Shown here piece after piece: positions 31,575 to 34,725 of a stretch of 64,000 nt of DNA. A program made the translations under genes and the position numbers. The notes under the pieces were generated by a model. It worked only from the letters and a program-made list of their open reading frames with translations. It was not told the DNA's origin and did no database searches. Source of the stretch: Actinoallomurus soli (GTDB lineage: Bacteria; Actinomycetota; Actinomycetes; Streptosporangiales; Streptosporangiaceae); assembly GCF_024055715.1 (NCBI RefSeq), contig NZ_JAMXMV010000033.1, positions 1 to 64,000 of the forward strand, read 5' to 3'. Within the stretch, counting starts at the first letter, position 1. Each line of letters starts with the position of its first letter.

Positions 31575-32113
31575 CGGCCGGCGGCGCCCGCGCCGCATCG
31601 GGGACGGACCCGGCCTCCGGCGGGACGGCGGGCCGGTGCGTCCTCACCGGCACGGTCCGCGTCGGGCTTCCGCCCGCGGAGGCGTTCCGTCTCTTCACGC
31701 CGGTCGGCGAGCGCGACTGGGTGGACGGCTGGGACCCGCGCTTCCCGGTTCCCGCCGGCGATGACACCGCGCCGGGCACGGTCTTCGAGACGACGGACCA
31801 CGGCCGTACGACCACCTGGGTGGTCACGGGCCGCGAGCCCGGACGCGCCGTCGCGTACGCCCGCGTCACCCCCGGCGACCGCGCGGGGACCGTGTCCGTC
31901 GTCCTGGAGGGCGCCGACGGCGGGGACGGAGGAGGGACGGCGGCGACCGTCACCTACGAGCTGACCGCGCTCACCGAGGCGGCACGGGAGGATCTGCGCG
32001 CCTTCGCCGCCGGCTATCCGGCGTTCCTGCGCTCCTGGGAGGAGGCGATCGCCGACGCGCTGGGACGCCGGGCTCCGTCCGCCGTACCTCCGGCGTCCTT
32101 GCGTCTGCGATAG
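31571..32113 (+). CDS. SRPBCC (START/Bet v1-like) protein
   Basis: A 180-residue lipid- or small-ligand-binding protein. The pattern LTGTVRVGLPPAEAFRLFTPVGE, then WVDGWDPRFP, TVFETTDHGRTTTWVVTGRE and VTYELTALTEAAREDL, matches polyketide-cyclase/SRPBCC helix-grip folds. It has a low-complexity N-terminal tail of about 20 residues. The ATG at 31571 follows GGAGGAG and overlaps the stop of the 31332 gene, so the two are coupled. The function is likely ligand binding or transport; no catalysis can be assigned. Confidence 0.78.
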   Translation: MTAGGARAASGTDPASGGTAGRCVLTGTVRVGLPPAEAFRLFTPVGERDWVDGWDPRFPVPAGDDTAPGTVFETTDHGRTTTWVVTGREPGRAVAYARVTPGDRAGTVSVVLEGADGGDGGGTAATVTYELTALTEAAREDLRAFAAGYPAFLRSWEEAIADALGRRAPSAVPPASLRLR

Positions 32114-32122
32114 TCTTGAGGT

Positions 32123-32158
32123 ATGCGATCTCGGCTGCTCCTCAGCCGGCCGCGCTGA
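32123..32158 (+). CDS. Leucine-rich leader peptide of leuS (predicted)
   Basis: An 11-residue open frame, MRSRLLLSRPR, with three consecutive leucine codons (CTG CTC CTC). It starts 137 bp before leuS and ends in a TGA inside the next stem. The position, length and run of cognate codons are what classical ribosome-mediated attenuation needs. The ribosome site GAGGT is upstream, only a few bases before the ATG. I infer that stalling at leucine codons during leucyl-tRNA shortage sets downstream RNA folding. Confidence 0.65.
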   Translation: MRSRLLLSRPR

Positions 32159-32198
32159 CCCGAGCCGTCAGCGCGGCAGCCCCTCCTGCGTGAGGGGC
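32133..32198 (+). promoter_or_regulatory. Attenuator folding region upstream of leuS
   Basis: GGCTGC at 32133-32138 (over the Leu codons) can pair with GCAGCC at 32176-32181. Competing stems are GCGCTGAC (32152-32159) with GTCAGCGC (32167-32174), and GCCCCTC (32179-32185) with GAGGGGC (32192-32198). The last resembles a terminator followed by GTTCT. Mutually exclusive pairing supports attenuation. Confidence 0.55.
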
Positions 32199-32259
32199 GT
32201 TCTCATGCCAGGGGCACGGTTCACCGCCACCCGAAGCCGTGCGAATCAGACGAGGAACC

Positions 32260-34725
<2,466 letters not shown>

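Follow-up and report, generated by a model that had tools for sequence, protein, structure and literature searches.

A leucine-codon leader with two covarying hairpins upstream of leuS in Actinoallomurus soli and many actinobacterial families: a probable ribosome-mediated attenuator

Results

The leuS leader of Actinoallomurus soli

The window, by which we mean the whole stretch of 64,000 nucleotides of Actinoallomurus soli analysed here (contig NZ_JAMXMV010000033.1, positions 1 to 64,000), carries a leucyl-tRNA synthetase gene, leuS, that is preceded by a short open reading frame with consecutive leucine codons and by two successive hairpins, referred to below as B and C. The features of this region are the following:

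32111..32116, + strand: -10-like box TAGTCT, ending 6 nt 5' of the leader ATG
32123..32158, + strand: leader ORF, MRSRLLLSRPR and stop, 11 sense codons, ATG at 32123
32149..32177, + strand: hairpin B (proposed sensor), 32149-32159 pairing with 32167-32177, 11 bp
32179..32198, + strand: hairpin C (proposed intrinsic terminator), 32179-32185 pairing with 32192-32198, GCCCCTC/GAGGGGC
32199..32207, + strand: short pyrimidine-rich tract GTTCTCATG, directly 3' of hairpin C
32260..34725, + strand: leuS, leucyl-tRNA synthetase, proposed controlled gene; TIGR00396 leuS_bact, 973 bits against a cut-off of 548

The leader reads ATG CGA TCT CGG CTG CTC CTC AGC CGG CCG CGC TGA, with its leucine codons CTG CTC CTC at 32135-32143 and its stop codon TGA (32156-32158) lying within the 5' arm of hairpin B. 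An earlier note on this DNA had described an 11-codon frame with three leucine codons in a row, a stop codon inside a stem and a stem GCCCCTC/GAGGGGC near leuS, and all three are borne out at the positions given above. Hairpins B and C are separated by a single nucleotide, and 61 nt lie between C and the leuS ATG (32260). The distance of the TAGTCT box from the ATG suggests that the leader transcript is leaderless; the box overlaps the stop codon (32111-32113) of an upstream frame of 180 amino acids, which has no NCBIfam match and which we take to be SRPBCC-like. Termination, if it takes place at C, is likely to fall near 32206, a T that is invariant in 40 of 40 representative relatives. The tract after hairpin C is poor in U in the window and better in some of the relatives. 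No Rfam family, T-box or any other, matched anywhere in the window at gathering scores. The 191-nt region folds only modestly better than shuffled versions of itself (z = -1.97, with 9 of 200 shuffles as good), which makes the fold of this single sequence weak evidence; the case for the element is carried by its conservation.

Conservation and covariation of the two hairpins

Relatives were collected in a scan with the first 280 residues of LeuS, of which the best 80 of 531 were kept; the nearest is that of Actinoallomurus spadix (98%), followed mostly by Actinomadura and other genera that we take to be Streptosporangiales. Among these 80 named relatives, 67 have a homologous leader upstream of leuS, a count restricted to frames with at least two adjacent leucine codons and a TAnnnT box a short way upstream of the start codon; MSARLLLERPR and MRARLLLGPPR are typical peptides. 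The leader is absent in the other 13 (9 Microbispora, 3 Planotetraspora and 1 Actinorugispora). A promoter-like box has been kept, and the ATG apparently lost, in the Microbispora loci (L022, L023, L030, L032, L044, L046, L052, L054, L060), several of which show the leader-like ACG CGT GCC GCC ACC CTG CTT after the promoter without an ATG, and likewise in Planotetraspora (L065, L073, L074), where a C-like hairpin has been kept as well. Judged by eye, the leuS upstream regions of both genera look like relics of a decayed attenuator.

The structure was assessed on a MAFFT alignment of 40 representatives of the 62 distinct leaders, from which L064 was excluded for an insert in the loop of B. The pairs of B and C are standard in 98.1% of 720 cells, reaching 100% in hairpin C, and 8 of the 18 pairs change on both sides, in 58 cells, a value that none of 500 shuffles equalled. 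Four of five covariation measures gave the same result (0 of 500 shuffles as high), and the fifth, which counts further pair types, was equalled by 151 of 500. The insertion in L064 (1755 onward) is of about 80 nt, and B-like and C-like arms can still be recognised by eye on its two sides.

A covariance model of B and C was then searched in 394 genomes of the class. It matched 206 of them, from 88 of 138 genera, at an E value of 0.01 or better, and under these strict filters 188 genomes had no match; the matches include leaders of genes other than leuS. We took 110 matches, 30 returned as loci and 80 picked from the matches listed so as to span families, mostly among the higher-scoring ones. 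Counting the window's own, 105 of these 110 lie upstream of leuS (22 families); the remaining five are one at a contig end (L107), one that was left unassigned (L131) and three that precede a cimA-like gene. With a second covariance model, 27 of 396 genomes of the phylum were matched, 10 of them outside the class, and of those 10 five precede leuS and five do not. One hundred leuS leaders of the class were aligned to the model, and are hence fitted to the structure: pairing is 96.9% over 1785 cells (98.8% for hairpin C), and two-sided changes affect 13 of 18 pairs (7 of the 11 pairs of B and 6 of the 7 pairs of C) in 155 cells, with 0 of 500 shuffles as high on any of the five measures. Both signs of conservation that the earlier note had named as support for its reading, a short leucine frame and compensatory base changes in relatives, are present in these alignments. 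As a separate observation, made by eye, several families (for example L090, L095, L101, L163, L169, L189) carry TGTCCGG or a near variant of it after the U tract, and in several folds a long-range helix joins the leader with the TGTCCGG motif after C.

Fixed spacing and codon choice

Ninety of the 100 class-wide leaders were readable, ten having been dropped for lack of a start codon at the model start, of a stop codon or of an adjacent leucine pair. Because these leaders were found by a model that includes sequence, similar spacing and codons are favoured among them (the promoter lies outside the model), and the counts were therefore repeated on the 67 named leaders, which had been found through LeuS and without the model. 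In the class-wide set the last leucine codon is separated from B by 5 nt in 88 of 90 leaders and by 2 nt in the other 2, and the gap between B and C is 0, 1, 2 or 3 nt in 2, 72, 15 and 1 of 90, while the loop of B varies between 3 and 43 nt. A model-free stem search in the named leaders gave gaps before B of 4, 5, 6 and 8 nt in 15, 46, 1 and 2 of 64, and B-to-C gaps of 0 nt in 53 and of 1 nt in the other 11, the remaining 3 of the 67 having no uninterrupted 7-bp stem. The leader peptides range from 8 to 18 residues, and their stop codons can fall upstream of the 5' arm of B, within it or downstream of it. Since the position of the stop codon relative to B varies, any ruler would be the distance from the leucine codons to B, and not that from the stop codon. 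Of 93 class-wide leaders, 90 have a TAnnnT box 6 or 7 nt upstream of the start codon.

The last leucine codon shows a strong bias as well: 81 of the 90 class-wide leaders have CTT there, 9 have CTC and none has CTG, and in the 67 named leaders, read without the model, it is CTT in 41, CTC in 26 and CTG in 0. Against this, the background of 2673 leucine codons in leuS genes consists of 82.5% CTG, 12.6% CTC and 1.3% CTT. CTC and CTT are both read by the GAG isoacceptor.

A proposed attenuation mechanism and its alternatives

We regard a leucine-sensing, ribosome-mediated transcription attenuator of leuS as the best explanation of these observations, with a probability of about 0.8. Transcription would begin about at the leader ATG, and a ribosome would load on the 5' end of the RNA and read the three leucine codons. 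With ample charged tRNA-Leu, the ribosome would run into B, keep it open and finish the leader, so that terminator C would form and transcription would stop before leuS. Under a shortage of Leu-tRNA, it would wait on the leucine codons, chiefly on the last (CTC or CTT), B would fold ahead of it and the polymerase would read through into leuS. The transcription start, the premature termination at C, the leucine response with its sign and the route by which B signals to C are what we infer here. Several points weigh against the attenuator: the lack of a conserved antiterminator in the search described below, where C is predicted to stay folded in most leaders; the one covariation measure that does not beat its shuffles; the 13 of 80 named relatives that have no leader and the 188 of 394 class genomes without a match under strict filters; the U-poor tract after C in the window; and the failure of codon-based control of a similar leader in one test, since in S. 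coelicolor the replacement of codons suspected of control upstream of ilvBNC is reported to have changed nothing (PMC1262725, in the part available).

Folding was computed under a ribosome mask of 15 nt on either side of the P site, for RNA with no ribosome, with the A site at the first or at the last leucine codon, and with the ribosome at the stop codon. The median pairing of B in the 90 leaders falls from 0.97 with no ribosome to 0.91 at the first leucine codon, 0.36 at the last and 0.00 at the stop. As the pairing of B tracks the state of the ribosome, B would be the part that reads it. Hairpin C has a median pairing of at least 0.995 in all four states, exceeding 0.9 in 74 to 79 of the 90 leaders with a minimum of 0.06, and in the window its pairing stays at 0.996-0.997. 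No conserved antiterminator was found by folding the 90 leaders in the four ribosome states, among two candidate helices or on inspection by eye, and in these models nothing was found that would displace C in general.

How B might act on C is addressed by a steric sub-mechanism based on tether length, which is tentative and, in our judgement, fairly improbable. Hairpin B would be a take-up hairpin: while a ribosome sits on the leucine codons and B is closed, folding of C would require the RNA that links ribosome and polymerase to shorten to roughly the distance at which the two touch, so that C would be blocked and readthrough would follow. Once the ribosome has reached the stop codon, an open B would leave enough slack for C to fold. 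The fixed distances from the leucine codons to B and from B to C, kept while the loop of B varies from 3 to 43 nt, agree with such a tether. On the assumptions that the RNA ends 8 nt past C and that E. coli geometry applies, the distance from the P site to the RNA end with B and C folded would be 20-21 nt in 85 of 90 leaders when the A site is at the last leucine codon and 22-30 nt (26 in 56 of 90) when it is at the first. For a ribosome at the stop codon, with B open, it would be 31-70 nt, with a median of 40, in 90 of 90. The corresponding values for the window are 20, 26 and 34 nt. A review gives the contact distance between the active centres of ribosome and polymerase as 25-26 nt, and cites modelling in which collided complexes are unable to answer termination hairpins (PMC10953045, consulted in part). 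In vitro, a trailing ribosome cut termination in the pyrBI leader from 21.5 to 9.9% (PMC10135430, in part). However, a ribosome with its A site at the last leucine codon leaves the lower stem of B half unpaired, which returns some nucleotides, and at the first leucine codon 19 of the 90 leaders reach 27-30 nt. Moreover, elongation inhibitors suppressed the ribosome effect on pyrBI termination (PMC10135430, in part), which counts against a merely parked ribosome, and conflicts between structure and function are noted in the available part of the same review (PMC10953045). With these reservations, and under the assumed geometry, we propose that a stalled ribosome and a folded B may leave too little RNA for C to fold.

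It is unlikely that the leader is translated without any control by codon stalling and that B and C set a constant low readthrough. The report that the ilvB leader of S. coelicolor was unaffected when its control codons were replaced would fit this explanation (PMC1262725, in part), but the conserved leucine run, the rare final CTT and the fixed distance to B would be hard to explain without codon sensing.

Distinctly unlikely is a classical trp-type switch with mutually exclusive hairpins built on the competing structures of the earlier note, where the leucine-codon region would pair with GCAGCC and so exclude the terminator. A 6-bp helix between GGCUGC (32133-32138) and GCAGCC (32176-32181) can indeed form in the window, and the Streptomyces leuS leaders have been called classical attenuators with antiterminator hairpins (PMC1262725, in part). 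Yet this helix has 86.1% pairing and no two-sided change, is broken at one pair in 14 of 40 relatives and does not beat shuffles, and it would form with the leucine codons free, not covered by a ribosome. A second candidate, pairing of the leucine codons with the 3' arm of C, is paired in 82.5% of cells, equal to shuffles, and would be interrupted wherever the middle codon is CTG (20 of 90 leaders). The two structures of the earlier note are not upheld as real competitors. What stands of its proposal for leuS attenuation, with strong support from conservation and covariation, is the leucine leader with its terminator-like hairpin; the mechanism built on the leucine codons and GCAGCC is unsupported. 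CTCCTT resembles the anti-Shine-Dalgarno sequence. Translational attenuation, in which the leucine codons would hide the Shine-Dalgarno sequence of leuS, a mode of action put forward for the leuA LEU element (PMC1262725, in part), is nevertheless very improbable, given that pairing of the leucine codons with the predicted leuS ribosome binding site barely beats shuffles (mean z -0.46, with 43 of 143 leaders below -1 and some of the predicted sites miscalled on C) and that the interval between C and leuS varies in sequence and length among relatives.

Two LeuS types under one leader

The leuS genes of the taken matches form two types by the identity of their N-terminal parts to the window's LeuS, about 62-84% (type S) versus 32-45% (type L); L106, at 49.7%, scores as type L when more of its sequence is used. 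The best solved structure for one protein of either type is 1h3n, which we take to be the Thermus LeuRS. Gene neighbourhoods were compared in 37 loci (the window and 36 others), 6 of which are too short to tell; the neighbour names degV, plsY, comEA and comEC were assigned by eye and are presumptive. Some or all of these four genes follow 11 S-type leuS genes (9 with at least 5 kb of downstream sequence) and 10 L-type genes, whereas 6 S-type loci that extend far enough downstream, including the window, and 4 L-type loci lie outside this degV-comEA-comEC slot. All 10 L-type loci in the slot have degV, comEA and comEC; among the 11 S-type loci, 2 have comEA and comEC without degV, and 1 has only degV before the contig ends. 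In family f9 both types occupy the slot, and in family f20 the slot holds an S-type gene, and a short contig has an L-type gene preceded by LCP and PGM, the upstream genes that elsewhere come before the slot.

The C-terminal ends of the L-type proteins differ with the slot. All ten L-type proteins in it (L209-L212, L214, L216, L247, L248, L255, L256) end in the tail R[AP]P[KR]LV of type S, and the four L-type proteins outside it (L213, L215, L217, L254) end in VPGRLV or VKGRMV, none of them with the S-type tail. Exceptions to the tail within type S are L259, from outside the class, which has none, and L072, with RQPKLV. When 8 S-type and 8 L-type proteins were compared, S-L identity over the last 68 positions of the comparison was 58-59%, similar to the identities within types (62-67% for S-S and 53-56% for L-L); in the 19 preceding segments, by contrast, S-L identity was 23-67%, each time below both within-type values.

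It seems from these alignments that an L-type body has replaced most of a resident S-type leuS between leader and tail, the leader staying in place, and the slot L-type genes with an S-type tail are possibly mosaic synthetase genes. Against an exchange, the leader also precedes the 4 L-type genes that lie outside the slot, function could be what preserves the tail, and related genomes are not independent. No report of a chimeric or transferred actinobacterial LeuS was recognised in the literature searched. One genome (G209; L100 and L125) has both an S-type and an L-type leuS, and a separate leucine leader precedes each.

Similar leaders before other genes

The genome of A. soli has a second leader of this general plan (L244, G000:C59:151170-151272), which reads MRSSLVIIGWRAGT, with B- and C-like hairpins. 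The gene behind it is cimA, for citramalate synthase: of the protein families, TIGR00977 scores best on the 252 residues of the product that were scanned, with a score below the full-length cut-off. Leaders with LLII or VLII precede genes 73-89% identical to this one in three relatives (L180, L181 and L182). Outside the class, L240 has a leader ending in LLLL before a leuA-like gene, 31% identical to CimA; the leaders of L239 and L243 end in LVLIT or LLIT, and the genes behind them were named ilvB-like by eye. Judged by title, no report of cimA attenuation was recognised in the literature.

Discussion

Attenuation of leuS is not a new idea, as attenuators of this gene were predicted in 2005 for S. 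avermitilis and S. coelicolor (PMC1262725, in part) and a leaderless leader before leuS, LeuL2, with the peptide MRAVRLLLSEPR, was reported in the RNA-seq reannotation of S. lividans in 2021 (PMC8079986, in part). The element in the window belongs to this kind, already in print for Streptomyces. It resembles LeuL2 of S. lividans in being a short ORF with LLL and a PR ending, followed by a terminator hairpin, upstream of leuS. LeuL2 is reported as leaderless in the part of that report available; in the window and in 90 of 93 class-wide leaders a -10-like box at a fitting distance suggests a leaderless transcript. Hairpins B and C are shared with the Streptomyces members, since the model built from the window's relatives finds leaders with the S. 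lividans peptide, and the exact peptide occurs in 7 of the 13 taken matches of family f18. In contrast, the window's leader has 11 residues and LeuL2 has 12, and the window's LeuS is of the other type, about 40% identical. What is new here, as far as comparison of genomes can tell, is the spread of the LeuL2-type leader over many actinobacterial families, together with its covariation. No other report of leuS leaders or of their wide distribution was recognised in the literature searched, which lay mostly outside subscription journals, and the available parts of PMC13236596 and PMC4833913 contain no leuS leader.

Several known attenuators share parts of this arrangement. The trp attenuator of E. 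coli combines a leader peptide containing codons of the amino acid concerned with a terminator before the gene. The window's leader is similar in having its LLL control codons and a terminator-like hairpin before the gene, but no antiterminator overlapping the terminator was found for the leuS leader. The pyrBI leader of E. coli offers a different likeness, in that a ribosome near the polymerase would keep the terminator from folding (PMC10135430, in part); however, the leuS leader would sense codon stalling and not polymerase pausing, and would have an added hairpin that we propose acts as a spacer. The ilvB-II motif of Corynebacterium also consists of two covarying hairpins, with an upstream ORF over the first and a terminator as the second. 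It differs in a proposed pairing between the P1 loop and the 3' side of the terminator, in its codons for branched-chain amino acids and in the gene that follows, ilvB (PMC10272879, in part).

In a broader picture, an antiterminator-less ruler attenuator of Actinobacteria would be an old element that has outlasted the exchange of most of leuS for a distant type. What remained would be a mosaic gene that retains its former C-terminal tail, and leaders of cimA, ilvB and leuA would be built on the same plan of two hairpins. Taken as a whole, this picture is doubtful.

A leuS attenuator had been predicted in two Streptomyces genomes; the present analysis extends it to an element that covaries strongly over many families of the class, and supplies a precise structure model for a leuS leader that is matched by no Rfam family at gathering score in the window. 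It also exposes a mechanistic gap, since the two hairpins do not overlap and stand at fixed distances and no antiterminator was found. If true, the exchange of LeuS under the same leader would mean that a control element can outlive the gene that it controls.
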